From contig CAJSZV010000001.1 of the NCBI GenBank assembly GCA_910574345.1, forward strand, positions 167,127 through 231,126: a stretch of DNA of 64,000 bases, written 5' to 3'. The DNA is from Clostridiaceae bacterium. GTDB lineage: Bacteria; Bacillota; Clostridia; Lachnospirales; Lachnospiraceae. How positions within the stretch are numbered: the first letter of the stretch is position 1; every line of letters begins with the position of its first letter. The notes under the pieces are model-generated. The model did not search any database. It was not told where the DNA came from and saw only the letters and a list, made by a program, of their open reading frames with translations. Shown one piece after another: positions 42,609-61,444 of this stretch. Both the position numbers and the translations under genes were made by a program.

Positions 42609-42654
42609 ACAAAAAATCGTATCAAAAAGTGTACTTTTTGATACGATTTTTTGT
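42609..42654. terminator. Perfect 22-bp palindrome, probable bidirectional terminator
   Basis: The arms 42609-42630 and 42633-42654 are exact inverse copies around GT, with A-runs on the left and T-runs on the right (ATCGTATCAAAAAGT core). Such symmetry suits termination from both directions. A partial extra copy, TATCAAAAAGTACA, occurs at 42747-42760. Confidence 0.7.
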
Positions 42655-42818
42655 AGCACAAATTCTTAACTACTTTATCATAATATCGTCATAATTTCAA
42701 TAAACTTTAGGATTTTTCTTGTGGAATTTCACTCCAATTTCTCTGTTATCAAAAAGTACAGGATTTGAAATACTGCTTGAGGGAAATTGCCCGCAGCGAT
42801 GAGTAAAGAGGGGAATTC

Positions 42819-44138
42819 ATGTCCCAAAATAAGATTTGCAAGACCATCCATCAATACAATCAATATCCGGTTCCGGATACTGATATGCAGAAACTGCAGG
42901 AGATCGCAGAGGACTGCCGGACTGTGAGGAATTATGTATATGCCAGATACGGCGGAATCGGAAGCATGTCAAAGCTCTATCCAGGGTATACGGTTCAGAA
43001 TGAGATGACAGAAAGCGGCCTGCGGACGCGCCTGGGCCTGCCGTCGGTCTACTTTTATCTGGCCATATTCGATGCTCTCGGAGATATTAAAGCTCAGTGG
43101 AGCAGGACAAAGGCAAAGGTATTGGAGCTGGTCAATAAAAATGAAGGGTTTTCCCCTGAGGAAAAGCATTACTTAAGATTTCTCCTGAAAGTGAACAATG
43201 CATTTGAGGCCGCGGTAAATCAAAAACCGATGGTGCTCAGGAAGGATATTCAGAAAACCTATGATGAGCTGGCGGGAAAAACCGACACAGAAAAACTTTG
43301 CCGCTATCTGTGCAGGCAGGTAAGAAAATACCATGCGAAGCAGCATACAGATACGGCGGACGGGTTCAGCCTTTCCGAGAAGGCATACCGGTATGAAGAC
43401 CATGGCATCCATATCGCGATAAAGGAAAAACGAAAGCGCATCTTTATACCGCTGACTGACAATAACCAGTACAGAAGGCAGATCTACTTAAAGCTCCTGC
43501 CTGAGAAAAAGAGTATCCAGATAAAAGTGCCGGTAGATGTAAAAGCGCAGAGCCACGAGGATTACACAGGCCAGGCAGGCATAGCCATGGGGCTCCACAC
43601 CATGATAACAACAGACCAGGGCCATTGCTACGGAGAGGAATTAGGAGAGCTCCAGATGGAATACGCACAGTGGATGCGTGCCCAGACCGGAATCTATAAC
43701 AGGAACCGGGAAAACAATCCGGGACGGAAGAAATACAACGCCAAAAAGAGACGGATGCTGGAACAGCTGCACAGTTATATTAACCATGAACTGAACCGCT
43801 TTCTGGAGCAGGAAAAGCCTGGAACCGTCTATATGGTGCGTCTCCCGGCCCCCAGGCAGGGAGGGGTGAACCCTAAGATCAACCACACCATATCCATGTG
43901 GCAGAGAGGTTACATCAGGAAGCGCCTGAGACAGAAGTGTATGGAACAGTCAGTGGAGCTAGTGGAAGTGCTGGGGAAAGACATCAGCAATGTGTGCAGC
44001 AGCTGCGGCGCCATAGGAACAAAGACGGAAGGAATCTTCCGGTGCGGCACATGCGGATATGAGGCGGGAGAGAAGACCAACACAGCCCGGAATGTGAAAC
44101 TGAGGGGTCAGGGAGAGGGAAAGCTGGAGAGGCTTTAA
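42819..44138 (+). CDS. TnpB-family protein with apparently inactive RuvC site (TldR-like candidate)
   Basis: 439 residues with TnpB layout: N-terminal helical/wedge region, split RuvC fold and zinc ribbon with Cys393, Cys396, Cys409 and Cys412 (CSSC, CGTC). All three expected RuvC acids seem replaced: GIDLG-type motif reads GIAMG (Ala256), the E of motif II reads VYMVRL (Val340), and the D before NAARN reads KTNTARN (Lys419). No tnpA accompanies it, and about 430 bases of structured non-coding sequence follow. Nuclease-dead TnpB proteins are known as RNA-guided repressors (TldR). Whether this family works that way is inference. The start has AAAGAGGGG upstream. Confidence 0.8.
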   Translation: MSQNKICKTIHQYNQYPVPDTDMQKLQEIAEDCRTVRNYVYARYGGIGSMSKLYPGYTVQNEMTESGLRTRLGLPSVYFYLAIFDALGDIKAQWSRTKAKVLELVNKNEGFSPEEKHYLRFLLKVNNAFEAAVNQKPMVLRKDIQKTYDELAGKTDTEKLCRYLCRQVRKYHAKQHTDTADGFSLSEKAYRYEDHGIHIAIKEKRKRIFIPLTDNNQYRRQIYLKLLPEKKSIQIKVPVDVKAQSHEDYTGQAGIAMGLHTMITTDQGHCYGEELGELQMEYAQWMRAQTGIYNRNRENNPGRKKYNAKKRRMLEQLHSYINHELNRFLEQEKPGTVYMVRLPAPRQGGVNPKINHTISMWQRGYIRKRLRQKCMEQSVELVEVLGKDISNVCSSCGAIGTKTEGIFRCGTCGYEAGEKTNTARNVKLRGQGEGKLERL

Positions 44139-44482
44139 AGGTTACCGATTCCATACAGTCACAATCAGTAAAGATCATAAGGACAGCCATTTAGATAAAT
44201 ACCGGTGATGAGCCGGGATTTTACCGAAAGGACTAAAGGCAGGTCCATGATAAGGCAGGCAAGACCTGTTATAGAAAAAGAGAGAACGGCATTAGAAGGC
44301 GGAGAGCAGTGCAGACAGCAAACCGCGCATTGGGTATGCCAAGACCCTGTGAACATGTAAGGTCACGCCAAAGCGTGTGCAGGTTACCGGTACAAAAGTA
44401 CCGGCAGCGGAATAAGTGCATGACGTAGCGGGGAGCGAAGTGGGAAAGCCCACATCATCCGATCTGGAATAAACCAGCCAAG
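44139..44482 (+). ncRNA. Structured non-coding region after the TnpB-like gene, candidate guide RNA
   Basis: No credible ORF lies in 44139-44482. Stems seen: CAGGTC/GACCTG (44240-44268), CACGC-CAAA-GCGTG (44364-44377), CCGGTAC-AAAA-GTACCGG (44387-44404) and a last hairpin GTGGG-AAAG-CCCAC (44440-44453). Intact TnpB genes encode their omega RNA at and beyond the 3' end, with the guide after the last scaffold stem; by that analogy the guide would begin near 44454. Alternatively this is the 5' leader of the downstream operon. Confidence 0.5.
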
Positions 44483-44569
44483 ATGAACCAATATGCCCTA
44501 TTTTACTCAGGCAATGAGCCGTGCAGTTTCGGACAGAAGCAGAAAAAATATAGATCTAAAGGTGAAACT

Positions 44570-45943
44570 ATGAAAAAAGCAGACAAACAACAGGCAGAAG
44601 AGGTAGTGACGCTTTTAAAGCGTTCCCACACCCTTATAAAAAAGATGCTGGATGCAAGAAACCGTCCTGCAGCCTTAGAGCTATTGGAACAGTGTCAAAG
44701 CTGTGCCATAAGCCTGGGAGAGAAGATAGAGGCCGTAGAAGGAGAGAATGCATCCACAATCCCACTGTTGGAAAGTTACTGCGAATTAACATATCAGATA
44801 TATGAAAAGGTAAAACAGCCATACCCGGTTAATGGAAATCAAATACATAACGACTTGGCAAAAGAATTAATCAAAATAGGCAGCAGCATCAAACAGGACA
44901 TCCACACACGGACAGAAGCCGTATTCCTGCCATATAAAGCCTCCATGTGGGATTCCTTAGAAAGCATATGGAAGGCAGCCGACGAAGACCCGGAATGTGA
45001 TGCCTATGTAATTCCGATTCCATACTACGACAAAAATCCGGACGGAAGCTTCGGGCAGCTTCACTATGAGGGCAGCCAGTATCCGGATTACGTCCCCATA
45101 ACCAATTATCACGATTACCAGTTTGCCGAGCGCCAGCCGGATATCATATTTATCCACAACCCTTATGATGAATTTAACTACTTAACAAGCGTGCATCCGT
45201 TTTTTTATGCCCGTAACTTAAAACAATTTACAGAAAAATTAGTGTATGTGCCATATTTCGTTTTAGGTGAGCCGGATCTGGATAATCCTGATTCTATAGA
45301 ACAAGTATCCCATTTCTGTACGAATCCGGGAGTCATCTACGCAGACAAAGTCATCGTCCAGTCCGAAAACATGCGCCAGGTATATATCAAGGTCATGACA
45401 AAATTCATGGAGGGACATGGGTTTACAAAAAAAGACTGGGAGGAAAAGATATTAGGTCTTGGATCACCCAAAATGGATAAAGTCCTGAGCACAAAAAAGG
45501 AAGACCAGGAAATACCGGAAGAATGGCTGAAAATCATCCGAAAGCCGGATGGAAGTTTCAGGAAGGTGATCTTATACAATACAGGCCTGACGGCATTTTT
45601 GCAGCACAGCGAACAGTATCTGGATAAGATGAAAGATGTATTCCGAATATTTTGGGAGGAAAGGGAAGAGGTGGCGCTTTTGTGGCGCCCCCATCCGCTC
45701 CTTGCCAATACGGTAAAAACCATGCGACCTGCAATCTTAGAGAGCTATGAGAAATTAGTAGGCGAGTACCAAAAAGCCGGGTGGGGAATTTATGACGATT
45801 CGGCAGATCTTAACCGGGCTATTGCGGTGTGCGATGCCTATTATGGGGATGGAAGCAGCGTGGTGCAGCTGTGTGAAGAGGCGGGGAAGTTGGTGATGAT
45901 ACAGGATGTGGGGGTACTTAACAATCTTAGTGTTAACGAATAA
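44570..45943 (+). CDS. CDP-glycerol glycerophosphotransferase-like protein
   Basis: 457 residues. An N-terminal helical/coiled-coil part (about 1-110) precedes a GT-B-like domain of the TagB/TarF type: VYVPYFVLGEPD, the ALLWRPHPL block and YGDGSSVVQLCEEAGK near the end are typical. Such enzymes transfer glycerol phosphate units to surface polymers. The N-terminal helices replace the usual membrane anchor. The ATG at 44570 has AAAGGTG upstream, while the earlier in-frame ATG at 44483 lacks a site. It is the first gene after the TnpB-like RNA region. Confidence 0.75.
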   Translation: MKKADKQQAEEVVTLLKRSHTLIKKMLDARNRPAALELLEQCQSCAISLGEKIEAVEGENASTIPLLESYCELTYQIYEKVKQPYPVNGNQIHNDLAKELIKIGSSIKQDIHTRTEAVFLPYKASMWDSLESIWKAADEDPECDAYVIPIPYYDKNPDGSFGQLHYEGSQYPDYVPITNYHDYQFAERQPDIIFIHNPYDEFNYLTSVHPFFYARNLKQFTEKLVYVPYFVLGEPDLDNPDSIEQVSHFCTNPGVIYADKVIVQSENMRQVYIKVMTKFMEGHGFTKKDWEEKILGLGSPKMDKVLSTKKEDQEIPEEWLKIIRKPDGSFRKVILYNTGLTAFLQHSEQYLDKMKDVFRIFWEEREEVALLWRPHPLLANTVKTMRPAILESYEKLVGEYQKAGWGIYDDSADLNRAIAVCDAYYGDGSSVVQLCEEAGKLVMIQDVGVLNNLSVNE

Positions 45944-45963: not shown

Positions 45964-46497
45964 ATGGCTGATAAGGAGACAGAAAAAAAGCAGACATCGG
46001 GAAAAAAAGGAACGATAATCATTGCCATAAGCATGTTGCTGATTATTGTGCTTCTTGGGGTTATTGCCTTTTTGCTTTTGAGAGAAGAAAAGACAGAGGA
46101 ACCAAAGAGAAACGTTGTAGTAAATCAAAGCAATGCAGAGGAAATCGCTGGCGAGATGATAAGCCAGGAGTATGTTGCGCCTGGTTATTACAGTGCGTCT
46201 ATGACAACCACCTGGCATTTTGAAACAGGCGATGCAGCTTCCTATGATGCTTATGTTGCGAATGTTGCCGAGAATACCAATGATGTTTATTTTGATATTT
46301 TTTTGGCAGAACAGGAGGATGAACCGATCTATCAGTCGCCGGTTATACCGAGAGGAAGCGAGTTGGATGAGATTATTCTCGATAAATCCTTGGACGCTGG
46401 AACACATGACTGTATTTTGATTTATCACTTGGTAGATGGGGAACAGAAGACAGTAAGCACTCTTCGCGTTGCATTGACGATTATAGTAGAGAATTGA
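45964..46497 (+). CDS. Membrane-anchored extracytoplasmic protein, unknown
   Basis: 177 residues. A short lysine-rich cytoplasmic start is followed by one strong transmembrane helix (about residues 17-40, IIIAISMLLIIVLLGVIAFLLL) and an outer domain of about 135 residues with beta-rich, acidic sequence. The basic residues before the helix predict N-in orientation. It starts 20 bases after the glycerophosphotransferase and comes just before a secreted protein gene, so the three may form a surface unit. No catalytic motif recognised. Confidence 0.7.
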   Translation: MADKETEKKQTSGKKGTIIIAISMLLIIVLLGVIAFLLLREEKTEEPKRNVVVNQSNAEEIAGEMISQEYVAPGYYSASMTTTWHFETGDAASYDAYVANVAENTNDVYFDIFLAEQEDEPIYQSPVIPRGSELDEIILDKSLDAGTHDCILIYHLVDGEQKTVSTLRVALTIIVEN

Positions 46498-46565
46498 TAT
46501 TTCAACGGTAACTGCTGCGCTGCATGGCACAGTTTACAATAAAAAATATGAAAAGGAGAAAAACT

Positions 46566-47648
46566 ATGAGAAAAACAAAGAAAATGATGGCTCTTGCACT
46601 GGCGGCTAGTATGGTGCTGGGCAGTTCTGTTGTAGCTTTTGCGGCTGAGGGTGATGCTACTCCAGGCGGAAGCGGAACGGTTTCTGGTACAGGTGAGGTT
46701 GAAGGACATGTAAACAAGGAAGTACTGAATGTGATTCTGCCTACGGTTCCGTCAGACCAGGCTTCCGCTTTCGCTTATACCATGGATCCAGAGCGTTTGA
46801 TTCAGGGAACGGATGCTGCGAAATATGAGGAGGGAACCGTATTTCCGGCTGCAGATGCTGATACAGGAGTATATTTCCTGACGGACACTAAAACATACTC
46901 GAATGAAAGTAATACCTATCAGGTGGTTAACAAGAGTAGCTGCGATGTAGACCTTACTGTAAAAGTAAAGGCAACCCAGAATTCAGCAAAGGATATTACA
47001 CTTGCATCAAGCAATGGAGTGTCAACCACTGCTCCTGAGCTTTATCTTGGTTTAAAGGTTGGTTCTTCGGAACAGGCAGTATCTGCTACAGAAGCGACAG
47101 TGAATAAAACTCTTGCCGGAAATAAGAATAATTTTGAGATAACCGTTAATACAAAAGATGACGGTACAAAAGAGTATGCCTATAAAGAAAAAGATAGCAC
47201 CTCAGGCTGGAAAGCCATGAACATCAGCCTCACCGGTACAGTCAGCAAGCTTGATATTGCAAGTGATACCACTGCACCGACCGTAGATGTGACCTGGAGC
47301 TGGGCGAAGGCAGCTGATAATGCTACACCGAGTACGGATGTGGTTGAGTTTGTGGATGGGCCGCAGATAGTAGTGAGTACAGCAGGATTGATTAATATAA
47401 CAGGATTAACTGCTGATGCGAATTATAAAATGGTAAAAATTACAGAAGAGAACGGAACTGTAAATAATATAACTGCTGCACCAGTTGATTATATTTCAGA
47501 TAATTGGAGTGAAGCGAACGGCGGCGTTTTAGGGATACAGCTTAGTGCTAAGTGGATGGATTATCTGAAAGGGAAAACAGTAACATTTACTCTTACATTG
47601 TCAGATGATTCCGAGAAGACTACAGAGGTTACATTCCCGGCTTCATAA
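46566..47648 (+). CDS. Secreted surface protein, beta-rich, unknown function
   Basis: 360 residues. A classical signal peptide (KKMMALALAASMVLGSSVVAFA, cleavage near AFA-AE) is followed by a Thr/Ser/Gly-rich, acidic, cysteine-poor extracellular protein with Ig-like strand patterns. No LPXTG or C-terminal membrane anchor is visible, so it may be released or held by polymer or partner contact. The start has AAAGGAGAAAAACT before it. The preceding anchored protein could be its partner (inference from proximity). Confidence 0.75.
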   Translation: MRKTKKMMALALAASMVLGSSVVAFAAEGDATPGGSGTVSGTGEVEGHVNKEVLNVILPTVPSDQASAFAYTMDPERLIQGTDAAKYEEGTVFPAADADTGVYFLTDTKTYSNESNTYQVVNKSSCDVDLTVKVKATQNSAKDITLASSNGVSTTAPELYLGLKVGSSEQAVSATEATVNKTLAGNKNNFEITVNTKDDGTKEYAYKEKDSTSGWKAMNISLTGTVSKLDIASDTTAPTVDVTWSWAKAADNATPSTDVVEFVDGPQIVVSTAGLINITGLTADANYKMVKITEENGTVNNITAAPVDYISDNWSEANGGVLGIQLSAKWMDYLKGKTVTFTLTLSDDSEKTTEVTFPAS

Positions 47649-47737
47649 CTGTAAATAGAATGTTGTAATCTGTATATGTGGAGTAGATTGGCATGTTGAT
47701 ATAGACAAAGCAGTTGATTTACTTAATAGTCAATAAA

Positions 47738-47848
47738 AATTAATGCTGGGGACAAAATCACTTATAACCATAAATTGTGTTGTTTGATTTAGAGTCTGTA
47801 CAACGAATGCAATTTATTTCCTAAGGACTGTGTGCCCCAGCATTAATT
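47738..47848. repeat. Nested inverted repeat before the glycan operon
   Basis: AATTAATGCTGGGG (47738-47751) and CCCCAGCATTAATT (47835-47848) are perfect 14-bp inverse copies 83 bases apart. Inside, ATAAATTG and CAATTTAT pair, as do GTTGT and ACAAC. The right arm lies just before the ribosome site of the first operon gene. Possible roles: leader RNA structure, terminator of the surface gene, or a recombination site. Confidence 0.6.
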
Positions 47849-47903
47849 TATGATTTTGAAGCAGTTTGATTTTTTAACCCATTTTTTGGAGGATAAAAAA
47901 GAT

Positions 47904-48644
47904 ATGGAGTTATTAAAAGATAAAAGGGCGATTATTACAGGAGGAAGAGGGATTGGGTTTGCAATAGCCAGAAAATATTGTGAAGAGGGCGCGAAAGTCA
48001 TTATTACAGGCAGAAATGAAGAAAAACTGCTTCGGGCATGTTCACACATAGGGGAACGCTGCCAGTATATGGTATGGGATGTCAGAGATTTTGAAAATTG
48101 CAGTAATAAGATAGAAGAGGCCTCTGTATTGTTGAATGGGCCGATTGATATTTTGGTGAATAACGCAGGGGTATTGACTCAAAACGATTTTAAGTGGAAT
48201 TATTTAGATTTGACTCCGGAAGAATGGGATTATGTAATGGACACGAACTGTAAGGGAATGTATTTTATGTGCCAAAATATGGCCAAGCACATGATAAAAA
48301 ATAATGTAAAAGGCCACATTGTGAATATTACATCTGAAATGGGGCTTCGTCCGGCTTGTGTTACCTATGGCATTTCAAAATGGGGAACAGTCGGGATGAC
48401 AAAAGGTTTAGGTCTTAAGCTGGCGTCAAAAAATATTGTAGTGAATGGAATTGCGCCGGGAGCCATTACGACAGAAATGATGGGCTGGAAAGAGGGTGAT
48501 TCTGTATATAGGGACAGTCATGCCAACAAAAGGTTTGGATTTCCGGAAGAGATTGCAGAATTAGCGGCATTTTTGGGAAGCAGTAAAGGGGACAATATAA
48601 TTGGAGAAGTTGTTTTAAGTGATGGAGGAAGTTCTTTAAAGTAG
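47904..48644 (+). CDS. Short-chain dehydrogenase/reductase
   Basis: 246 residues, classical SDR. NAD(P) motif ITGGRGIGFAIA, NNAGVL, catalytic SEMGLRPACVTYGISKWG (Ser, Tyr, Lys triad) and the late APGAITTEM segment. The start at 47904 follows TTGGAGGAT; upstream in-frame starts run through the inverted repeat. It is the first gene of the tightly packed cluster, 15 bases before the aminotransferase. Substrate probably a sugar or cyclitol intermediate (inference from context). Confidence 0.9.
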   Translation: MELLKDKRAIITGGRGIGFAIARKYCEEGAKVIITGRNEEKLLRACSHIGERCQYMVWDVRDFENCSNKIEEASVLLNGPIDILVNNAGVLTQNDFKWNYLDLTPEEWDYVMDTNCKGMYFMCQNMAKHMIKNNVKGHIVNITSEMGLRPACVTYGISKWGTVGMTKGLGLKLASKNIVVNGIAPGAITTEMMGWKEGDSVYRDSHANKRFGFPEEIAELAAFLGSSKGDNIIGEVVLSDGGSSLK

Positions 48645-48659
48645 CAGGAGCGCCAAAAG

Positions 48660-49772
48660 ATGAAAAATGAAAAAATATTTGTGACAAAATCTTCGATGCC
48701 TGATTATGAAGAATATATTGAGGCAATTAAGCCTCTGTGGGATACTCACTGGCTGACGAATATGGGGCAGTATCATCAAGAACTGGAGCAAAAATTGAAA
48801 GAATATTTGGGTGTGCGGGAACTGTCCCTGATGGTAAATGGACATATGGCATTGGAATTGACAATTCAGGCCATGGGATTTCCAGAGGGTGCAGAGGTAA
48901 TCACAACACCGTTTACGTTCATTTCTACGACTCATGCTATTGTGCGGAATCGTTTGAAACCTGTATTCTGCGATGTAAAGCCGGAAGATGGGACTATAGA
49001 TGAGACAAAAATTGAAGAATTAATTACAGAACATACCGTGGCTATTGTGCCTGTGCATGTATATGGGAATGTGTGCAACGTAGAAGAGATCCAGAGGATT
49101 GCAGATAAGTATAGTCTGAAGGTGATTTATGATGCGGCACATGCATTTGGCGTGTCTTATAAAGGGAAAAAAATTGGAAATTTTGGTGATGCTTCTATAT
49201 TCAGTTTCCACGCGACAAAAGTATTCAACACCATAGAAGGCGGGGCGGCAGTTTTCTCAGATCATCGGATTTATGAAACATTGTTTAATTTAAAAAATTT
49301 TGGAATCCGGGGGGAAGAGATGGTAACAGAGGTTGGCGCCAATGCAAAGATGAACGAGTTTTGTGCTATCATGGGACTTTGCAATTTGAAACATGTGGAA
49401 GGGGCCATTGCCTGCCGGAAAGACCTGTGTGAAGAATATGACAGACAATTAAGAAATGTACCAGGGATTAAGATGTTTGAGACGAAGCCGGAAGTGGAGC
49501 GAAATTATGGATATTATCCAATCCTTATAGAGAAAGATTATCCTTTGAGCAGGGATGAGTTGTATGAAAAATTAAAAGAACAGGGCATACACACAAGAAA
49601 ATACTTTTATCCTTTAACCTCAGATCAGGCATGTTTTAAAAATAAATATCGAAGTGTGAGTTTAGGCTGTGCACGGGAACTGGCAAAAAAAGTGCTGGTA
49701 CTGCCAGTGTATGACAAGATGGAGGCAAAAACGCTGACATATGTAATAGAATCGATTAGGTCAAATTCTTAA
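48660..49772 (+). CDS. DegT/DnrJ/EryC1/StrS family aminotransferase
   Basis: 370 residues. Fold type I PLP enzyme for nucleotide-sugar or cyclitol amination: TPFTFISTTHAI, YDAAHAFGVSYKG, and the PLP lysine in SFHATKVFNTIEGG are family hallmarks, with FGIRGE and YYPILI following. It would place an amino group on a keto sugar made by a partner oxidoreductase, and two candidate oxidoreductases (SDR, Gfo/Idh) flank it. Confidence 0.92.
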   Translation: MKNEKIFVTKSSMPDYEEYIEAIKPLWDTHWLTNMGQYHQELEQKLKEYLGVRELSLMVNGHMALELTIQAMGFPEGAEVITTPFTFISTTHAIVRNRLKPVFCDVKPEDGTIDETKIEELITEHTVAIVPVHVYGNVCNVEEIQRIADKYSLKVIYDAAHAFGVSYKGKKIGNFGDASIFSFHATKVFNTIEGGAAVFSDHRIYETLFNLKNFGIRGEEMVTEVGANAKMNEFCAIMGLCNLKHVEGAIACRKDLCEEYDRQLRNVPGIKMFETKPEVERNYGYYPILIEKDYPLSRDELYEKLKEQGIHTRKYFYPLTSDQACFKNKYRSVSLGCARELAKKVLVLPVYDKMEAKTLTYVIESIRSNS

Positions 49773-49791
49773 AGTAGGTGATAAAGCTGTG

Positions 49792-50976
49792 ATGAAGGTA
49801 TTGTTGCTTTGCGCAAGTCATAATGATTTGGGGCTGGTGTATGCATTAAGGAAACTGGGGTATGAGATTATTGTTACTGGCAGTATACCTGGGCTTATAG
49901 GGGAAAAATATGCGGATGTTTATATAAAAGCGGATTATTCGAGGAAGGAAACCATATTAGAAATCGCACAAAAAGAAAAGATTGATGCGATTTGCGCTTG
50001 TTGCAATGATTACGGTGTATATACAGCAGCCTATGTTGCGGAAAAATTGGGACTCCTAGGGTATGATTCTTATGAGACAACGCGGATATTGCATAATAAA
50101 GATAAGTTTAAGGAATTTGCGAAAAAGAATCATATCATTTCGCCTTGGACAGAGGCATTTGAAAGTTATGATGCGGCAGTTGATTTTTTGAAAAATGTTC
50201 CGTTTCCGGTTATTGTAAAACCAACGGACGCCAGTGCTGGAAATGGAATAGAAAAAATTGATTCATTTGACAGAGGGGAAAAAGCTCTGCAAGCTGCTTT
50301 TGAAAAGTCAAGAATTGGAAAGATAGTAATAGAGGAATTTATAGAGGGAACACAACACGGATTTTGTACGTTTTTGATTAACCAAAAGGTTGTTGCAGTA
50401 TGTAGTAATAATGAATATTCTTTTATAAATCCATATAGGGTGGAGATAGATACATATCCGGCGGATAATTATGAGAAAGTATCTGCTCAGATAATTGCTC
50501 AAATTGAAAAGATTGCCTCGTTATTACGATTAAAAGATGGGATTTTTCATTTGCAATATATATATAAAGACGGGATCCCTCAAATTATTGAAGTGATGCG
50601 GCGGGTAATCGGAAATATGTATTTTGTTCCGGGTAATCTTTTGACAGGTCTTAATTGGGAATATTGGGAAGCAAGGGCAAGATGCGGGCTGTCATGCGAA
50701 GGATTTCCTCAGTATGTTTATCAGGAAGGTTTTTATGCATATAAGACAATTTTGGGCAGTAAAAACGGAGAAATAGAGTCTATTAATATTCCGTCCAAAT
50801 ATAGGAAATATTTGGTGAGGAAGTGTATTTTAAAGGAAAAAGGGGACAGAATTACGCATTATGAATCGGAACCTGTGGGATTTCTGTTCTTTATGTTTTC
50901 ATCTCAAGAGGAGATGAATCAGATTTTAATTAAAGAATATGATAATGCTATTGTGCGCATAAAAGATAATAGATAG
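49792..50976 (+). CDS. ATP-grasp ligase
   Basis: 394 residues. N-terminal Rossmann-like pre-ATP-grasp part (MKVLLLCASHNDLGLVYALRKLGYE) and ATP-grasp core with PVIVKPTDASAGNGI, IVIEEFIEG and the HLQYIYKDGIPQIIEVMRR metal-binding region. Such proteins link a carboxylate to an amine via acyl phosphate. In a glycan cluster it may attach an amino acid or other acid to an amino sugar. The ATG at 49792 follows AGGTGAT; a GTG lies one codon earlier. Confidence 0.85.
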   Translation: MKVLLLCASHNDLGLVYALRKLGYEIIVTGSIPGLIGEKYADVYIKADYSRKETILEIAQKEKIDAICACCNDYGVYTAAYVAEKLGLLGYDSYETTRILHNKDKFKEFAKKNHIISPWTEAFESYDAAVDFLKNVPFPVIVKPTDASAGNGIEKIDSFDRGEKALQAAFEKSRIGKIVIEEFIEGTQHGFCTFLINQKVVAVCSNNEYSFINPYRVEIDTYPADNYEKVSAQIIAQIEKIASLLRLKDGIFHLQYIYKDGIPQIIEVMRRVIGNMYFVPGNLLTGLNWEYWEARARCGLSCEGFPQYVYQEGFYAYKTILGSKNGEIESINIPSKYRKYLVRKCILKEKGDRITHYESEPVGFLFFMFSSQEEMNQILIKEYDNAIVRIKDNR

Positions 50977-50988
50977 AAGGAATATATT

Positions 50989-52170
50989 ATGAATAAACAT
51001 AATGAAATATGTATTGGAATGGCAGGTGCGGGGCGGGCAACAGAATTACATATGAATGGTTTGAAACGGTATTCAGGAGTTCCATTGTGTTTCAAACATA
51101 TTATTGCAAGAAGGTTTGAGCAAGTTAAGGTGGCGAAAGAAAGGTATGGTTTTGAAAATTCCAGCTTGTGTTTTGATGATTTATTGAGTGATCCGGAAAT
51201 AGATGTGATTGATATATGTACGCCGCCATATGTGCATGAGGAAATGATTATGAAAGCATTAAATGCCGGAAAACATGTTATTTGCGAAAAGCCATTAAGC
51301 GGATATTTTGGGAGTCTGGGTGATGAGGAGCCTATTGGATTGAAGGTTTCTAAAGTGAAAATGTATGACTCAGTACTTCAATCCCTGGAAAGACTGAAGA
51401 AGATCATTGATGCTTCCGACCGAAAGTTCATGTATGCAGAAAATTTTGTATATGCTCCGGCTATCAATAAGGCAGCTGAAGTTATCAGAAAGAAAAAGAG
51501 TAAAATTTTATATGCCAAGGGTGAAGAAAGTTTAAAGGGCTCCAGTTCACCGGTTGCCGGAGAATGGAATAAGACAGGCGGCGGAACGTTTATGAGAACC
51601 GGAGCACATCCGTTAGCGGCAATTTTGTGGCTGAAAAGACAGGAAGCTGATGCCAGGGGGGAAAAGATAGCAGTTAAATCAGTATTTGCAGATATGGGGC
51701 AGATCACGCCGGTTTTAACTCCCTACGAGCACCGGCATATTGCGGCATATCCCCATGATGTGGAAGATTGTGGAACCGTATTGCTTACATTTACAGATGG
51801 AACAAAGGCGACAATTATTGCCACAGACACATTGTTAGGGGGAAGCCGGAATTATGTAGAGTTATATTGCAATGATGCAGTGATTAACTGCAAATTGACA
51901 ATGTCCGATATTATGAGCACTTATTTTTTGGATGAAGACAGGCTGGAGGACGTCTATATTTCGGAAATGCTGCCCTCTAAGATTGGCTGGAATAATCCGT
52001 TTCTTGAAGATGAAATCATACGTGGATATACGGATGAAATGCGTGATTTTATGGATGCGATTTATTATGATAAGAGAGCAAAATCGGAGTTTGATTTGGC
52101 ATATGATACAACGAAAATTATTTATGCGGCGTATAAATCTGCTGAACTGGGTATAGCAGTGGAACCATAG
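50989..52170 (+). CDS. Gfo/Idh/MocA family oxidoreductase
   Basis: 393 residues. The N-terminal NAD(P) fold begins IGMAGAGRATELHMNGL; the catalytic EKP motif is in HVICEKPLSG. A second alpha/beta domain has TGGGTFMRTGAHPLAA with a catalytic-like histidine. These enzymes oxidise ring hydroxyls of sugars or cyclitols. With the DegT enzyme it resembles the NtdC/NtdA and RifL/RifK type of pairings that make 3-amino sugars (kanosamine). It is 9 bases before the DAHP synthase. Confidence 0.88.
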   Translation: MNKHNEICIGMAGAGRATELHMNGLKRYSGVPLCFKHIIARRFEQVKVAKERYGFENSSLCFDDLLSDPEIDVIDICTPPYVHEEMIMKALNAGKHVICEKPLSGYFGSLGDEEPIGLKVSKVKMYDSVLQSLERLKKIIDASDRKFMYAENFVYAPAINKAAEVIRKKKSKILYAKGEESLKGSSSPVAGEWNKTGGGTFMRTGAHPLAAILWLKRQEADARGEKIAVKSVFADMGQITPVLTPYEHRHIAAYPHDVEDCGTVLLTFTDGTKATIIATDTLLGGSRNYVELYCNDAVINCKLTMSDIMSTYFLDEDRLEDVYISEMLPSKIGWNNPFLEDEIIRGYTDEMRDFMDAIYYDKRAKSEFDLAYDTTKIIYAAYKSAELGIAVEP

Positions 52171-52179
52171 GTGATAAGA

Positions 52180-53205
52180 ATGAAATATGTGAGAAAACTC
52201 CCGGATGCAGATGAGATTATACAACAGTATCCTCTTGACAATGTACAGAAAAAGAATAGAAAACAACGGATTGATGAAATAGAAAAAATATTGTCGGGAA
52301 GGTCTGATAAAAAAATAATTTGTATCGGCCCTTGCTCGGCAGACAGGGAAGATGCAGTTGTTGAATATGTGCTAAAACTGGCCAAGATTCAGGAGGAGTT
52401 GAAGGATAAATTTTTTTTAGTGCCTAGAGTATATACAAGTAAGCCAAGAACAAACGGAACAGGATACAAAGGTCTTCTTCACAGGCCAGCCGTATATAGC
52501 GGGCATGATGATATATTTTCCGGTGTGATTGCTATGAGGAAAATGCAGCTTCATGTGATTCAGCAGACAGGTATGTTTTGTGCAGACGAGATGCTGTACC
52601 CGGAGGCGATGTATTATATTTTGGATTTGTTAGCTTATGTGGCAATTGGCGCACGTTCTGTGGAAAATCAGCAGCATCGGTTAACTGCCAGCGGCCTGGA
52701 AATACCTGTAGGAATGAAAAATCCCACCAGCGGAGATCTGGAAGTTTTATTAAATTCAATTATTGGAGCCCAATATCCACAATCTCTTTTATATAGGGGC
52801 TGGGAAGTACAGACGGAAGGAAATCTGTATGCACATGCTATTTTGAGAGGTTATACGGATTTATCAGGGAAGATACACCCTAATTATCACTATGAGGCTT
52901 TATGTGACTTCCACGATCTGTATCAGAAGAAGAATCTGAAAAATATGGCGGTATTGATAGACTGCAGTCACTGTAATTCAAGAAAACATTATGATGAACA
53001 AGAAAGAATTGCAAAGGAAATAACCGTATTATGTAAGGAAAACAAGGATCTGAACAGATTTGTAAAGGGACTTCTTATAGAGAGTTACCTTAAGGATGGA
53101 GCGCAGATGATTGGTGAGAATATATATGGAAAATCCATAACGGATCCTTGTCTGGGGTGGAATAGGACAGAAAGACTATTAAAGGAACTGGCTGATCTGT
53201 GTTAG
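52180..53205 (+). CDS. DAHP synthase (class I, AroF/G/H type) inside the glycan cluster
   Basis: 341 residues. IGPCSADRED, VPRVYTSKPRTNGTGYKGL, AIGARSVENQQHR, VGMKNPTSGDL and IDCSHCNSRKHY correspond to the PEP, metal and E4P binding segments of class I DAHP synthase. Some positions differ from the usual ESQVHRELASG and KNGTDG motifs, so the aldose acceptor may be altered. No other shikimate gene is here, so a special pathway is likely. The ATG at 52180 is preferred over the GTG at 52171. Confidence 0.88.
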   Translation: MKYVRKLPDADEIIQQYPLDNVQKKNRKQRIDEIEKILSGRSDKKIICIGPCSADREDAVVEYVLKLAKIQEELKDKFFLVPRVYTSKPRTNGTGYKGLLHRPAVYSGHDDIFSGVIAMRKMQLHVIQQTGMFCADEMLYPEAMYYILDLLAYVAIGARSVENQQHRLTASGLEIPVGMKNPTSGDLEVLLNSIIGAQYPQSLLYRGWEVQTEGNLYAHAILRGYTDLSGKIHPNYHYEALCDFHDLYQKKNLKNMAVLIDCSHCNSRKHYDEQERIAKEITVLCKENKDLNRFVKGLLIESYLKDGAQMIGENIYGKSITDPCLGWNRTERLLKELADLC

Positions 53206-53242
53206 ATCAGATGACCTGTTGGGAACGTGTAAGGGGTAGAAT

Positions 53243-54457
53243 ATGCGGATTGTACTTGTGAATGCTCATTGGAATAACAGAGGGGATGAAGCGGCATTAT
53301 ATGCATTAATAGAGGGAATCTGGAAGCTTGATTCAAAAATAAGGATAGATATTATTTTTAAGGAAACAAAAACAGTCACTCAGTTTTTATATGAGGGAAG
53401 GATAAGATATATTACGACAAGATTTCGTCCCCAAGAGGATGAAGTAAAATCTGCAATAGCATTTCCCGAAAGCTCTAAAAATGTTGACATGAAAAGGGAA
53501 ATGGAGTTTTTAAGGAATGCTGATATGGTAATATACGCGCCGGGAGGAAGCGTTATAAGTGATAGATTTTGGTGGACAAAACAATTGGAATATTTATTTC
53601 CTGTGGTATACGCACAGAGTTGTGGAATGAAAACCTTTTTTGCTGCTCCGTCTATTGGGCCGTTTACAGAAGAGCATAGATATAGAAATGAAATACTTTG
53701 TAAGGTGAATACAATTTGTCTGCGGGAGAATATAGGAAAGTCAGAATTAATAAGGTCTGTTGGAGAACTTGAACTTTCAAATTGTTTGGTGGGAAATGAT
53801 CTTGCATTTCTTGGCAATGTAAGTATGGAAGAAAACGATGATATTTTTAAGGAAGATAGGAGATTAGTTGAATATTGTAAGAGATATGAAAAAATAGCAG
53901 GTATTACAATAACGGATCTAAACTGGAATGTTGAGTTTGCAAAAGATGAAATACTAAGACAGAGGATAGAGGATTCGTTTAAACAATTTATACATTGGCT
54001 TGAAGAAAAAGGAATAGGTGTGATTCTTATTCCGCAGTTGTTTGGAGAACAAAATGACAAAGATTATTTGATGAAATATGCAAAAGCATGTACCAATGTG
54101 TTTGTTCTCAGCGAGAGATATGATCATTCATTCCAGCAGTATCTGATCTCAAAATGTTATGCGGTTGTTGGACTTAGATATCATTCCAATATCTTTGCCG
54201 CAAAAATGGAAGTGCCAATGATACCCATTATTTATGAACAGAAAATCAGGGGATTTTGTCAGGATTCTGGCATTTATGAATGGGGGATAGAAATAGATCA
54301 ATTATCAGATGAGACTTTAAAAGTAAAGTTTATGGAGTTAGAAAAGGACTATGGATATCGTAAGAAGAAACTGTTTGAGAAAAATAAGGAGTGGTTTGGG
54401 AAATCACAGAGAACAATGGAAGCCTTAAATGAGTTGATGAAACATAGTGAGGGATGA
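53243..54457 (+). CDS. Polysaccharide pyruvyl transferase family protein
   Basis: 404 residues of the WcaK/CsaB type. VNAHWNNRGDEAALYALIEG, ADMVIYAPGGSVISD, SIGPF and the late VVGLRYHSNIFAAKMEVP are hallmarks. Members transfer pyruvate from PEP to sugar hydroxyls, forming acidic ketals on surface glycans. Both this enzyme and the preceding DAHP synthase use PEP. Confidence 0.88.
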   Translation: MRIVLVNAHWNNRGDEAALYALIEGIWKLDSKIRIDIIFKETKTVTQFLYEGRIRYITTRFRPQEDEVKSAIAFPESSKNVDMKREMEFLRNADMVIYAPGGSVISDRFWWTKQLEYLFPVVYAQSCGMKTFFAAPSIGPFTEEHRYRNEILCKVNTICLRENIGKSELIRSVGELELSNCLVGNDLAFLGNVSMEENDDIFKEDRRLVEYCKRYEKIAGITITDLNWNVEFAKDEILRQRIEDSFKQFIHWLEEKGIGVILIPQLFGEQNDKDYLMKYAKACTNVFVLSERYDHSFQQYLISKCYAVVGLRYHSNIFAAKMEVPMIPIIYEQKIRGFCQDSGIYEWGIEIDQLSDETLKVKFMELEKDYGYRKKKLFEKNKEWFGKSQRTMEALNELMKHSEG

Positions 54458-54470
54458 TAGAGGATATAAT

Positions 54471-55973
54471 ATGGATCAGGATTTACAATATGTGCGGTTT
54501 AAAGAATCAAGATTTTACGGTTACTTTCAGAAAATGGTTGAGATGAAAAACAGACTGGAAGAGCAGGGCGTATATTTTCTGTTTGTACAAGTACCTTTGG
54601 AGAAAAATATAAAGAATCTTTCTGAATTTGAAAAGGAGAGACTTTCTGACTGGACTTTTGATTTTAACAATATTAGGGAAGAAGATTATAAGCGTATTTG
54701 CCAGATCTATTCTTGTGAAAGTGAAAAGGATGATGTGATAGATTACTTAAAAAAGGTTTATGATGGTGCCAAGGTTTTTGAAATGAACGGAATAAAATAT
54801 TTGGCGGATTTTAAAAGTGATCTGGTTAATGTAATTAATGGGAAAAGGGTAACTTATTATCAGCCGGAGAAATATGGCAATCATATTTATATGTTTGGGC
54901 AATGTACGGCAAGGGGAACGGGGGTTGAGGATAAAGATACCATAGCCAGTTTTCTGCAAAATGAAGTTAATAAAGCGTTCCCTGATTGTTATCGGGTCGA
55001 AAATATGGCAATTGGATGCGGCTCAGATATTCATGATGATATGGCTCATGCTGAAAAGATAGATTTCAGACAGAATGATATTGTTATATTCTGTACGAAC
55101 CTTGAGATAGTACCTGTGGAACTGTTTGAAAAGAATAAAATCAGCTATTTTGACTGTTCTGAAATATTTAATCGTCCCCATGAAAAAGGGGAATGGTTTA
55201 CGGATATGACCTGCCATACCAATGGGATTGGAAATGAAGCAATTGCGGATTTTATTTTAGAAAAATTATGCTTGTTAAATTGTCTGAATAAAAGCACAGA
55301 GCAGACAAACATTCCGCAGAATATGGCGGAGCCCGACTATACAAAGGTGCCTGAATTTGTAGATTATATAAAAGGTCTTGGTTTAAAAAAGAAAGCGGGA
55401 AATAATGGCTGTATTGTAATGAATGGTAATCCGTTTACATTTGGACATTTGCATTTGATAGAACAGTCGGCAAAGAAAGTGGACAATCTTTATGTATTTG
55501 TGGTGGAGGAAAATAAATCTTTTTTTCCGTTTGATGAGAGATTTCAGCTGATAAAAGAGGGAACAAAAGGCATTTCAAATGTTGAAGTTTTACCCAGTGG
55601 GAAGTTTATTATTTCAGCGCTGACTTTTCCGGGCTATTTTCTAAAGGATGGGAATAAGGAAATAGATGTTGATGTGACATCGGACGTATTGATTTTTGCA
55701 AAATATATTGCGCCGGCTCTTGGAATATCTGTTCGATTTGTAGGGGAGGAGCCTTTTGATTATGTTACGAGAAAATATAATGAAGAAATGAAACAGGTCT
55801 TTCCCCAGTATCATATTTCTTTAGAAATAATTCCGAGAAAGGAAACAAAAGATGGAATGGTAATTAGTGCTTCTTATGTGAGAGGATTGTTACAAAAACG
55901 GGAATTTGAATTAATAAAGGGGATAGTCCCGTTGGTTACTTATGAATATTTGAAGAGGAATTATGATAGATAG
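54471..55973 (+). CDS. CitC-like adenylyltransferase fused to an SGNH-like N-terminal domain
   Basis: 500 residues. The C-terminal 200 residues match citrate lyase ligase-type nucleotidyltransferases: CIVMNGNPFTFGHLHLIEQ (TxGH motif), YVFVVEENKSFFPFDERF and the SASYVRGLL end. The N-terminal 280 residues look like an SGNH/GDSL-type fold (IYMFGQCTARGTGVEDKD; later DMTCHTNGIGNEAIADF with D and H). No citrate lyase genes are present, so it probably adenylylates or activates an acid or phosphate in this pathway. The 3' end overlaps the next gene by 11 bases. Confidence 0.8.
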   Translation: MDQDLQYVRFKESRFYGYFQKMVEMKNRLEEQGVYFLFVQVPLEKNIKNLSEFEKERLSDWTFDFNNIREEDYKRICQIYSCESEKDDVIDYLKKVYDGAKVFEMNGIKYLADFKSDLVNVINGKRVTYYQPEKYGNHIYMFGQCTARGTGVEDKDTIASFLQNEVNKAFPDCYRVENMAIGCGSDIHDDMAHAEKIDFRQNDIVIFCTNLEIVPVELFEKNKISYFDCSEIFNRPHEKGEWFTDMTCHTNGIGNEAIADFILEKLCLLNCLNKSTEQTNIPQNMAEPDYTKVPEFVDYIKGLGLKKKAGNNGCIVMNGNPFTFGHLHLIEQSAKKVDNLYVFVVEENKSFFPFDERFQLIKEGTKGISNVEVLPSGKFIISALTFPGYFLKDGNKEIDVDVTSDVLIFAKYIAPALGISVRFVGEEPFDYVTRKYNEEMKQVFPQYHISLEIIPRKETKDGMVISASYVRGLLQKREFELIKGIVPLVTYEYLKRNYDR

Positions 55974-57051
55974 ACTAGAAAAATCTAAGTGTTGCGGGTG
56001 CGGAGCATGTGTGTCGGCGTGTCCGACAGATGCAGTTGTTATGAAAGAGGACAGGGAGGGGTATCTATATCCAAGAGTGGATGCAGAGGTGTGTGTTCAG
56101 TGTCAGATCTGTGAAAAGGTATGCCCGGCGGTGAAGAGAAGGTCAAAGAGGGATTCGCTTCTTAAGGCTTATGCCTGCTATTACCAGGAGGAAGGGATAC
56201 GTGCCAGGAGTACATCTGGCGGTATATTTTCGGCAATAGCAGAGTATTTGCTGGAAGAAAAAAAGGGAAAGGTATATGGAGTTTGTTTCAATGACAATTT
56301 TATGACAGAATACAGCAGCGCTGACAACAAAAATGAATTGGGGAAATTTCGGGGTTCCAAATATAGTCAATGTTCAGGGAATAATGTTTATCAGGATGTA
56401 AAAAAGGAACTTGCAAGGAGCAGAACCGTTCTTTTCTCTGGATTGCCTTGTCAGATTGAGGGATTGCGTTCTTATTTGGGAAGGGATTATGAGTCATTAT
56501 ACCTCCTTGATATGGTATGTTTTGGTATTGGGTCGCCGGGATTATGGAGAAGTTACAGAACAGAATTTCATCCTCATGCAGAGGAGATTTGTTTTAAGGA
56601 TAAATCCGAGGGCTGGAAGAATTGGAAAGTTTTTATAAGAGAAAATGGAGAGGATCACTATTATTCAAGATATGACAATTTGTACATGAAGAGTTACCTG
56701 GAAAGGATAAATTTGAGGCCGTCATGTTATGAATGTCAGTTTAAGGGGTTACAAAGAAATAGTGATTTCACGATTGCGGATTGCTGGGGAATGGGTGAAA
56801 AGAGTATTTTAAATGATAATAAGGGACTGTCAGCGTTATTGCTTCATACAGACAAGGCGGCAGATCTGTTTGAACAGATTAAGAATAAACTTCTTTTTGA
56901 AGAATATGATCCGGAACTGTTAATGGCGGGAAACTGGGCGGTATATAGGAATGCTGAAAAAAGCATAGAGAGAGAAAAGTTTTTTGAGCAAATATATCAG
57001 GGGGATTTTAAAGAAAATTACAGAAGGTTAATGGGAAGTATGAAAGAATGA
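55963..57051 (+). CDS. Coenzyme F420 hydrogenase/dehydrogenase beta-type Fe-S protein
   Basis: 362 residues. Two 4Fe-4S motifs at the N terminus (CCGCGACVSACP and CVQCQICEKVCP) precede an FrhB-like domain with STSGGIFSAIAEYLL, FSGLPCQIEGLRSYLG and SCYECQFKGLQRNSDFTIADCWG. In glycan clusters, members commonly accompany pyruvyl transferases and may reduce or remodel sugars; the exact reaction is unproved. It overlaps both neighbours by a few bases. Confidence 0.88.
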   Translation: MIDRLEKSKCCGCGACVSACPTDAVVMKEDREGYLYPRVDAEVCVQCQICEKVCPAVKRRSKRDSLLKAYACYYQEEGIRARSTSGGIFSAIAEYLLEEKKGKVYGVCFNDNFMTEYSSADNKNELGKFRGSKYSQCSGNNVYQDVKKELARSRTVLFSGLPCQIEGLRSYLGRDYESLYLLDMVCFGIGSPGLWRSYRTEFHPHAEEICFKDKSEGWKNWKVFIRENGEDHYYSRYDNLYMKSYLERINLRPSCYECQFKGLQRNSDFTIADCWGMGEKSILNDNKGLSALLLHTDKAADLFEQIKNKLLFEEYDPELLMAGNWAVYRNAEKSIEREKFFEQIYQGDFKENYRRLMGSMKE

Positions 57052-57941
57052 AAATATCAGAGATGTTTTGGGCTTTACTGATTGGTATTATTGTGTATTT
57101 ATGGATTGCCTGGCATATTCAAAAGAAGAGGAATCGTCTTGTACGGCTGAAGAAAAGTGCGGATATGGTTAATCTCGGAAGTACTTACGCCTACTATGAC
57201 TTTGAATATAGGAACTTGGGCATAGAAGGTTATAATCTGGCTAATATTCCACAGTATTTTGATGTGGATAGCATATTATTAAAAAAGTATGGAAAGAGAT
57301 TAAAAGCTGGTACAAAAGTTCTTTTTTGTGTTCCGGATTTCGTATTTGCGGCTAATAAAACAAATATGAAAAGAAAAGTGTATTATGAGGCATTGTATCC
57401 TTGGGAAATAGATAAGTATGATATTTGTTTTTTTATAAGACTTTTATGGAAGGCGGCAGCGGAGCCTATTACGCATTTCTATCAGAAGGAAGAGAAGAAA
57501 TGGGAGGGGCATATTGCATCTGTTGAAGAAAAAGAACACCATTTAGAAAAAAGAATTTATGACTGGGAGCATAATTTGGGAATCCCAAGTGTTAAAAGTG
57601 GTGAGATGACGGAGCAATTATATAAGAATATAACTGAAAATGAAGAGTTGTTAATGGAAATGATTTTGTGTTGTGAAAATAAGGGGCTGGAGCCTGTTCT
57701 TGTGGTTCCTCCGGTATCTGGTATGATGAAAAAGGCTGTCAGCATGCAATGCTTAAAGGTCTATTTATATGATCCTTTAAACCGGGTTAAGGAACATACG
57801 GGTGTGAAGGTATTGGACTATATGAATAGCGATGAATTTGATGATCTGGGATTATATTTGAATTCTGACTGTATGAATGAAAATGGGAGAGGGTTGTTTA
57901 TGAAGAGGTTGGTGGGGGATTTAATGAAAAAGGGCGAATAA
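57048..57941 (+). CDS. Membrane-anchored DltD/SGNH-like protein
   Basis: 297 residues. One N-terminal transmembrane helix (about residues 5-24), then NLGSTYAYYDFEYRNLGIEGYNLA, which resembles the nucleophile region of SGNH/DltD-like proteins, and a closing SDCMNENGRGLFMKRL where a DxxH motif would usually stand (here DxxN). It may act outside the membrane in polymer O-acylation or de-acylation, possibly inactive. It overlaps the Fe-S gene by 4 bases. Confidence 0.65.
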   Translation: MKISEMFWALLIGIIVYLWIAWHIQKKRNRLVRLKKSADMVNLGSTYAYYDFEYRNLGIEGYNLANIPQYFDVDSILLKKYGKRLKAGTKVLFCVPDFVFAANKTNMKRKVYYEALYPWEIDKYDICFFIRLLWKAAAEPITHFYQKEEKKWEGHIASVEEKEHHLEKRIYDWEHNLGIPSVKSGEMTEQLYKNITENEELLMEMILCCENKGLEPVLVVPPVSGMMKKAVSMQCLKVYLYDPLNRVKEHTGVKVLDYMNSDEFDDLGLYLNSDCMNENGRGLFMKRLVGDLMKKGE

Positions 57942-58005
57942 AGATGCTTATGGAGCAAAACTCTGAAAACAGATATGCAGTTTATTGTGAAGGGAAGAAT
58001 ATTAT

Positions 58006-59208
58006 ATGTCTCATGTTGTCAATACAGATACAATGGGAAGAAAAGAAAACATACACTTTATTGGCGGGGCTATTGTGGATGAATATTTATGGACAACTGC
58101 CTTGGAGTGGAATGGATATTATAAGATAAATGTCAGGACAGGATATACGGAATTTTTGGGTTTATTTGACTATGCGGATAGTTTAGCAGATAAGTTATTT
58201 AGCCGGGTTTTAGTACATAATAAGTTTGTTTTTTTTGTTCCATGGTTTTTTAATTATTTGGTGAGAGTAGATACAGAAACCTTAGATATCAGATACTGGA
58301 TGCTTCCGGAAAATATTACCCGTGAAATAGCAAAATTTAGAGCCGCATATATATACAACGGAAGGATCGTTATGTTTCCACATGTTGGAGATGATATCTG
58401 TATTTTTGATATTGAAAAAGGAGAATTCAAGTGCTGCAGAAACTGGATAAAAGAGTTGGATAAATATAAACTGAAAAATAAAGAAGATAAATTTCTTCAG
58501 GGATGTCAGATCGGGGAAATTGCCTATGTTGCAAATTCGTCTGATGGTTTTATAATGAAATACAATTTGCATAATGACACTTATGAAATAATATTATTTC
58601 CTGAAAGTGAAAAAGCGATTTTTGATGTTGAAAAGTTTGATGACAATTATCTGTTGATATTAACCGCTGTGGGGAATGTATGGAAATATAATATTATTAC
58701 ACATAACAGAGAATTAATATACCAATATCATGGAAGAACAAAAAATCCATATGGACATGTGATTGCAGAACAAAATTGTTTTTATTTAATTCCTGCAAAG
58801 GAGTCCAATATAAAATTTTTTGATGGAAAAAAGGAAATCGTTGTGCCGTATCCAGATGATTGGAAGTTACACTATATCAATGTAAATATAGAAACTGTTT
58901 TTAACGGATATTTGAGAAACAAAAATGAAATTTTACTTTATCCATGCCTGGGAAATAAATTACTAAAAATAAAACCGGGACAAAGAACAGCATTAGGCCT
59001 GGATATTCATGAGAACATTGAGGACAGAGCAGAGGGAGTGAGAAAACGGATCCTATCTTCTGGAATGTGCACGGAGTTGCTATACGAACCTAAAAGTAAT
59101 CTTGACTTGTATTTAAGTATTGTCAATGGAAAGGGAGAGAAGGCAGAGACTACAAAACATCCAAAAATAATAGGTCTGGAAATCTGGGATAAAATGAAAG
59201 GATTTTAA
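58006..59208 (+). CDS. Predicted beta-propeller protein, unknown
   Basis: 400 residues with repeating strand-turn blocks such as YYKINVRTG, LVRVDTETLDIRYW, DICIFDIEKGEFK, IMKYNLHNDTYEI and VWKYNIITHNREL, about every 45-50 residues, giving some six blades. No signal peptide or membrane helix. Kelch/WD-like surface-recognition or scaffold role possible; no catalytic residues recognised. A competing frame at 57944 overlaps its start and is rejected. Confidence 0.7.
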   Translation: MSHVVNTDTMGRKENIHFIGGAIVDEYLWTTALEWNGYYKINVRTGYTEFLGLFDYADSLADKLFSRVLVHNKFVFFVPWFFNYLVRVDTETLDIRYWMLPENITREIAKFRAAYIYNGRIVMFPHVGDDICIFDIEKGEFKCCRNWIKELDKYKLKNKEDKFLQGCQIGEIAYVANSSDGFIMKYNLHNDTYEIILFPESEKAIFDVEKFDDNYLLILTAVGNVWKYNIITHNRELIYQYHGRTKNPYGHVIAEQNCFYLIPAKESNIKFFDGKKEIVVPYPDDWKLHYINVNIETVFNGYLRNKNEILLYPCLGNKLLKIKPGQRTALGLDIHENIEDRAEGVRKRILSSGMCTELLYEPKSNLDLYLSIVNGKGEKAETTKHPKIIGLEIWDKMKGF

Positions 59209-59214
59209 AAACTT

Positions 59215-60363: not shown

Positions 60364-60405
60364 ACAAAGCAAATAAATTTTCATCAGTTATAGCAGGAGG
60401 ATTAA

Positions 60406-61347: not shown

Positions 61348-61399
61348 AATTCGGAATAAAAGGGGAAGATAATACAGTTGAGAGAGTTGGGAGAATAAT

Positions 61400-61444
61400 A
61401 TGATAAAAAAGATTATTAAATTTTGGGAGTTTAATTTTATATGA
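61400..61444 (+). CDS. Possible 14-residue upstream peptide coupled to the glycosyltransferase
   Basis: MIKKIIKFWEFNFI, with GGGAG before its ATG, ends at a TGA that overlaps the next ATG (ATGA). Could be a coupling peptide or chance. Confidence 0.25.
   Translation: MIKKIIKFWEFNFI

Follow-up and report, generated by a model that had tools for sequence, protein, structure and literature searches.

Nuclease-dead TnpB proteins and a covarying leader RNA at the head of surface-glycan clusters in Clostridia

Long polysaccharide operons can be controlled from their leaders by processive antitermination, as with LoaP and EAR. Among exapted TnpB proteins, the closest described systems are the csrA-associated TldRs of Oscillibacter and Flavonifractor, which were shown to be guided to fliC ORFs, with hin reported as the recombinase at their loci (PMC13418256). 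A 6-nt seed is enough for a published TldR (PMC13418256). Here we describe a TnpB family whose members lack the nuclease triad and most of which stand at the head of glycan-type gene clusters. The window, that is, the whole stretch of DNA analysed, is 64,000 nucleotides long and comes from a member of the Lachnospiraceae.

A TnpB-family protein without its catalytic acids

An intact ORF on the forward strand (42819..44138) encodes a protein of 439 amino acids that homology and predicted structure mark as a nuclease-dead member of the TnpB family. Sequence matches through the C-terminal half place it in the TnpB/Cas12f superfamily, and the predicted structure concurs for the RuvC and zinc part; the N-terminal half of the structure model is of low confidence, too poor to be named by structure. 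The preliminary description, made from the letters alone, had seen a full-length TnpB-like protein with all three RuvC acids replaced and with the zinc ribbon and fold kept, and this stands. The D-E-D triad of the active nuclease is absent. By alignment, Ala256 (codon at 43584..43586, forward strand) lies opposite the RuvC-I Asp of an intact TnpB, at a position where the family has Ala, Ser, Asn or His; Val340 (43836..43838) and Lys419 (44073..44075), both forward, lie opposite residues 324 (E) and 401 (D) of AsCas12f1, so that the RuvC-II Glu and the RuvC-III Asp are gone as well, as the family alignment also shows. The zinc-ribbon cysteines 393, 396, 409 and 412 (43995..44054, forward) are unchanged across 14 homologues.

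The losses extend to the whole family: none of the 28 members in the alignment, from which seven broken or cut copies were excluded, retains any of the three acids. In the two closest pairs of dead TnpB genes, dN/dS is ~0.14 and ~0.08, and by this comparison the coding sequences are under purifying selection. The earlier suggestion that the protein is maintained for a non-nuclease job is supported, and so is the earlier view that it is of a distinct sequence type, as a separate sequence family. It had also been said to lack a transposase partner; the transposase type searched, Y1 (PF01797), was not found anywhere in the assembly.

The genome of the window carries a paralogue (63-64% identity) on a different contig. 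In a search of the same taxonomic family, 14 of 299 genomes matched at E <=0.001: nine of these, including the genome of the window, matched at E <1e-100, and the other five gave weak partial matches. Matches were found in 10 of 392 genomes of an order-wide sample at E <=1e-10 (three of the 10 being more remote TnpBs) and in 4 of 391 genomes of a class-wide sample at 1e-15. Two records of the genome collection gave matches as well. Phages and plasmids yielded remote TnpB matches only. Two members (L115 and L116) come from contigs classed as viral. Upstream of L115 is a resolvase-type recombinase, and by eye L116 has an ORF in which a LicD-like and a capsid-like part look fused, which may be a chimera. 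Some copies are broken or shortened (L012, G283d, G686c and G662).

The closest relatives found with an intact triad, as read from the translation, are L168 and L169, two copies of one element from another family of the same class. The element, which we take to be IStron-like, is repeated (~2.4 kb, 81% identity, two genera), and its TnpBs, in genomes G1052 and G896, match nearly full length (E of 3.4e-79 and 2.1e-74). It ends at the corresponding place 3' of the gene. No transposase gene was noticed by eye in the two ORF lists. In a tree, the main clade of 24 members has support of 98/91, and the intact L168 and L169 group with the remote members L055, L056, L057 and L116 (92/79, not starred). 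The triad may thus have been lost once or twice in the family; the tree is compatible with either.

A second, remote family of triad-less TnpBs (family B) comprises 16 ORFs. The Glu is missing in 16 of 16, the RuvC-III Asp in 15 of the 15 rows that cover the position, and the first Asp, whose column lies outside the alignment, is also missing by eye. Family B was found in 8 of 397 genomes at E <=1e-40; its members include L048, L051 and L130-L145 (G550, G136, G263, G242 and others). Polysaccharide-type genes, named by eye, lie downstream in all four loci inspected, and 18-26-nt inverted repeats lie upstream in three of the four; one of these, L059, has a Pfam-confirmed tyrosine recombinase between the repeat arms. 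The covariance model of the window RNA, described below, found no RNA match at family B loci; short conserved blocks occur 3' of family B genes.

A covarying RNA and the cluster that follows it

Comparison, covariance and folding point to a conserved structured RNA on the forward strand at 44172..44502 (~330 nt; the 5' boundary is approximate and the covariance core is 44284-44505). It is common to the regions 3' of the homologues, with the exception of L007, where a full-length dead TnpB precedes glycan-type genes and the RNA is absent. A covariance model of the core, built from 13 loci, matched 13 of 13 protein-bearing genomes searched; seven of these had supplied loci for the model, and six (G283, G060, G467, G571, G514 and G557) had contributed nothing. 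In the family sample, 17 of 397 genomes matched. Fitting of the alignment to the model biases the pairing statistics in its favour: standard base pairs fill 97.1% of cells as against 78.3% in shuffles (0 of 500 shuffles were as high), two-sided changes number 58 and fall in 12 of the 16 pairs of the core, and slid controls were 28-49% paired. The folding z of the window RNA is -4.3. Rfam gave no gathering-level match near the RNA and nothing credible within 44100-44600. The intact element copy L169 resembles the model in the same place, as a weak match (17.7 bits; E of 9e-4 in 579 nt and of 0.13 in 78 kb), and L168 has no score against it. Going by its position and by this one weak match, the RNA probably descends from the scaffold of a TnpB guide RNA.

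Conservation of the RNA ends at about CCTTATTT, where the leader of the first operon gene starts. That gene (44570..45943, forward) starts 68 nt after the RNA and encodes a glycerophosphotransferase-like enzyme (PF04464, below its cut-off). The rest of the same-strand cluster (45964..63958) continues to the end of the window. The whole cluster spans at least 19 kb, with 17 same-strand ORFs (>=100 amino acids) over the 19.4 kb 3' of the RNA. Besides the glycerophosphotransferase-like enzyme, its cargo includes membrane and secreted proteins, a short-chain dehydrogenase, a DegT sugar aminotransferase and others; the dehydrogenase and the aminotransferase were identified by Pfam and the others by eye. 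Glycan-type genes, many of them named by eye, lie downstream at most homologue loci, each with its own RNA except L007, and four neighbour clusters (glycerophosphotransferase-like enzyme, membrane protein, secreted protein and recombinase) occur in six loci each. The preliminary description had placed the gene beside a surface-glycan locus. The tie to glycan loci holds, but the gene is not merely adjacent: gene and RNA form the head of the cluster, in the order inverted-repeat promoter segment, dead TnpB, RNA and glycan cluster. Neither the RNA nor the upstream repeats figured in the preliminary description. No terminator-like site was found on the coding strand between the dead TnpB gene and the operon, and simple attenuation is therefore unsupported.

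At two loci (L010 and G686a), csrA and flagellin lie upstream, instead of the position at a glycan head; the csrA of G686a was identified by motif only. A scan of 35 loci for csrA and flagellin hallmarks found them at these two and none near the window locus. The order recombinase, csrA, flagellin, dead TnpB and RNA was recorded under L030 (G057) and under L104 and L106 (G686). In the remnant G686c, whose neighbours are those of the L010 site, csrA and flagellin are lost and the RNA is kept. Elsewhere in the window (36639-36814), two tandem GA-cis RNAs lie just 5' of a topoisomerase/gyrase A-like gene, named by eye.

A motif, AGTATATRTATCTTATT, lies 40-92 nt 3' of the RNA in five loci (<=2 mismatches) and also after the L007 gene; the loci in which it stands shortly 3' of RNA or gene are L005, L006, L009, L091, L092 and L027. 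As a conserved guide target it was rejected: by eye, it agrees poorly with the RNA end beyond ~7 nt.

That protein and RNA can function separately is best supported by the arrangement in genome G283. Three RNA copies there head glycan-type clusters; 22-26-nt inverted repeats precede each copy, and adjacent tnpB was not found. A fourth RNA has a decayed tnpB as its neighbour, and the sole intact dead tnpB found lies elsewhere, without RNA. By script, a tnpB ORF or fragment lies upstream in 29 of the 35 RNA loci. Of the other six, L004 has the gene (hidden by an antisense ORF), G557b has a gene end at the contig edge, G666 is at a contig end, and three are the G283 copies without tnpB. Several genomes have 2-4 copies. 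The protein probably acts in trans, and the RNA from its place in the operon leader.

The upstream repeats and promoter segment

The left arm of an inverted repeat (42630..42643, forward strand) matches the right arm (42747..42760, reverse strand) exactly at 14 of 14 positions, within imperfect 22-nt arms (42622-42643 and 42747-42768, 86%). The 103-nt segment between the arms (42644..42746) is presumed to be invertible: homologous segments lie at other loci, and the one in G283c is flipped. The segments of G283a and G283c are mutually inverted (score of 1.5 direct and 71.0 as reverse complement). The window segment scores 1.5 direct and 16.5 as reverse complement against G283c, 26.0 direct and -2.5 reverse against L006, and 9.5 versus 8.5, with no clear orientation, against G283a. 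The G283b segment also looks flipped, less clearly than that of G283c.

A conserved promoter-like site faces away from the gene in L002, L006, L019 and G283a and towards the RNA in the flipped G283c. Its counterpart in the window is a sigma-70-like site, TTGAAA-17-TAAAGT with TG (42672..42700, reverse strand; 9 of 12), directed away from the gene. Since the window segment is oriented as in L002, L006, L019 and G283a, it is probably in the OFF orientation. This reading is weakened by a competing promoter-like site of equal score found by the promoter scan, TTAACT-18-CATAAT (42666..42695, forward strand), which is directed towards the gene. Promoter-like sites in the region number 5, with 3.1 expected. 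Hallmarks of an invertible promoter are thus present, namely repeats around a promoter-like segment and, between loci, both orientations.

The short type of repeat, with arms of 14-28 nt that lie 101-117 nt apart, stands directly upstream in 8 of the 35 RNA loci, including the window, and its inner segments are homologous among loci. Another 11 of the 35 have a tyrosine recombinase gene between the arms; it is read forward at eight of these loci and backward at three (L022, G686b and G710), and the L022 recombinase ORF, as called, overruns one repeat arm. Three recombinases of this cluster were checked with Pfam and all three match PF00589; two of the three belong to the 11 loci. Another three loci (L011, G571 and G633) have other repeat pairs, and in the remaining 13, some of which are at contig ends, an inverted repeat is absent or marginal. 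An adjacent site-specific recombinase is usual for an invertible promoter and is not required. By script, an ORF of the recombinase cluster is present in 14 of the 35 loci, and none lies within 8 kb upstream of the window gene.

Guides, alternative explanations and known systems

If the RNA carries a guide, it would lie at the RNA end (44502..44521, forward strand), which is also the operon leader. A start codon with a ribosome site lies <=60 nt 3' of the RNA in 11 of the 34 loci with a placeable RNA end (36 were examined); at these loci a would-be guide extends into the leader that precedes the first operon gene. Exact 14-mer guides had no convincing target in the locus sequences, and with <=2 mismatches the matches there were scattered, none being common between loci or at an evident promoter. 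Against their whole own genome, two guides gave nothing convincing: one and six other matches at 2 mismatches, with 1 and 0 for reversed-pattern controls, and three of the six are copies of one repeat. These guide tests would miss a target with a 6-nt seed. The tail of L002 matches at 17 of 20 positions the presumed transcription start of three sRNA-like repeat copies in the same genome, a weak match because, by our estimate, a 20-mer allowed 3 mismatches would have ~0.33 matches by chance. Three promoter-linked repeats of genome G000 (L118, L119 and L120, at C5:128361, C9:117808 and C9:148125) begin with ACGTAAGCAATGAGCAGTGC, a sequence similar to the tails that follow the RNA in the window and in L002; one of them is weakly like Clostridiales-1 RNA, below its cut-off.

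Our main reading, to which we give a probability of about one half, is that an exapted dead TnpB and a former guide-RNA scaffold form a regulatory ribonucleoprotein of phase-variable surface operons, with the RNA in cis at the leader. A small invertible promoter, as comparison between loci suggests, would turn the locus on or off, and in the ON state a single transcript would span dead TnpB, RNA and glycan genes. The protein would bind this RNA in the leader of its own operon or of others in the same cell, and would thereby control transcription as it enters the long glycan operon. In the likeliest form of this reading, the RNA would serve in cis as a loading site that keeps the ribonucleoprotein at the leader, either to control elongation or to pair back with its own DNA. 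From the RNA to regulation, each step is one that we infer. For this reading count the RNA's presence in all 13 protein-bearing genomes, its covariation, the G283 arrangement, the inverted repeats with segments in both orientations, the long same-strand cluster and the similar surroundings of family B in the four loci inspected. Against it count L010, G686a and the remnant G686c, which head no glycan operon and where trans guidance fits better, as well as L007 without RNA, the 13 loci without clear repeats, the lack of a recognised recombinase near the window locus, the missing terminator-like site and the oppositely directed promoter-like site of equal score. A broader version, which we hold tentatively, is a two-part switch: each glycan operon would combine its invertible promoter with a leader RNA derived from TnpB, and a single dead TnpB, common to all of them, would read these RNAs in trans, pairing each to its own operon DNA or silencing sister operons. 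RNA-dependent control would then be layered on promoter inversion, and TnpBs of different lineages would have been recruited for it on two or more occasions.

It is also possible, if somewhat doubtful, that the protein is a classical TldR that acts in trans, with a short guide (seed of ~6 nt) that silences other surface loci, so that the ON operon would shut its competitors in mutual exclusion. The presence of 2-4 copies in several genomes fits this, as do the corresponding end of the element in the nearest intact relatives and, weakly, the match of the L002 tail, and L010 and G686a, with a recombinase upstream, resemble the csrA-linked TldRs guided to fliC ORFs (PMC13418256). When 20 guides were compared with sister loci, two fell below 5% of shuffles, where one was expected (G557a, 2 of 300 shuffles; G686d, 5 of 300), but both are purine-rich, and the other 18 showed no excess. 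Thirteen guides from five genomes did no better than 34 of 200 shuffles against flagellin loci, the csrA-flagellin loci included; the tails vary freely among loci, and in 11 of 34 a start codon lies near. The TldR idea raised in the preliminary description is partly supported, by the link of two relatives to csrA and flagellin, but no convincing guide target was found in the own genome or at sister or flagellin loci. We consider it improbable that the ribonucleoprotein governs inversion itself, via the recombinase or the inverted repeats, and not operon transcription: at least 19 of the 35 RNA loci have an inverted-repeat element directly upstream, which in 11 encloses a tyrosine recombinase gene, but own-locus guides gave just 1 match to the upstream region over 33 loci (<=2 mismatches of 14), and invertible promoters elsewhere are not known to need such a partner. 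Least probable of all is a functionless, decaying transposon remnant that hitchhikes with glycan loci. TnpB ancestry and the broken or shortened copies are what such a remnant would leave, but the low dN/dS, the loss of the triad with fold and zinc site kept, the covarying RNA, the missing Y1 transposase and the recurring operon context all speak against it.

If the main reading is correct, RNA-dependent control by exapted TnpB would extend from flagellin to the glycan coat, on top of promoter inversion. One protein with several leader RNAs per genome is a setting in which to ask whether TnpB-derived RNA works in cis, and the family provides a naturally occurring collection of nuclease-dead effectors whose RNAs covary.

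Several known systems share parts of this arrangement. The element-borne TnpBs of G1052 and G896 are alike in their nearly full-length match and in the RNA-like sequence in the same place in L169, and unlike in their intact triad, in belonging to a repeated element and in the absent model score of L168. The type V CRISPR effectors Cas12f1 and Cas12m2 differ in that the RNA of the window family is part of an operon leader; the repeat families listed for 41900-50000 include no CRISPR-like array. LoaP and EAR likewise join a structured leader to a long surface operon, with a different class of protein. We did not find a glycan-locus dead TnpB family in the literature searched, in which subscription papers are thinly covered. 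TldRs are alike in the lost RuvC acids, a guide-RNA-like RNA just downstream, several loci per genome, an invertible promoter and recombinase by the locus, surface structures as cargo and, for L010 and G686a, the link to csrA and flagellin (PMC13418256). Here, in contrast, the cargo is a glycan cluster, a tyrosine recombinase (11 of 35 loci) takes the place of hin, the RNA can also head an operon with no tnpB found beside it, and a guide target was not found; the proteins were compared by description. Because inverton-linked csrA-flagellin TldRs have already been published, we rate the glycan-locus dead TnpB as a variant of TldR-type exaptation and not as categorically new.
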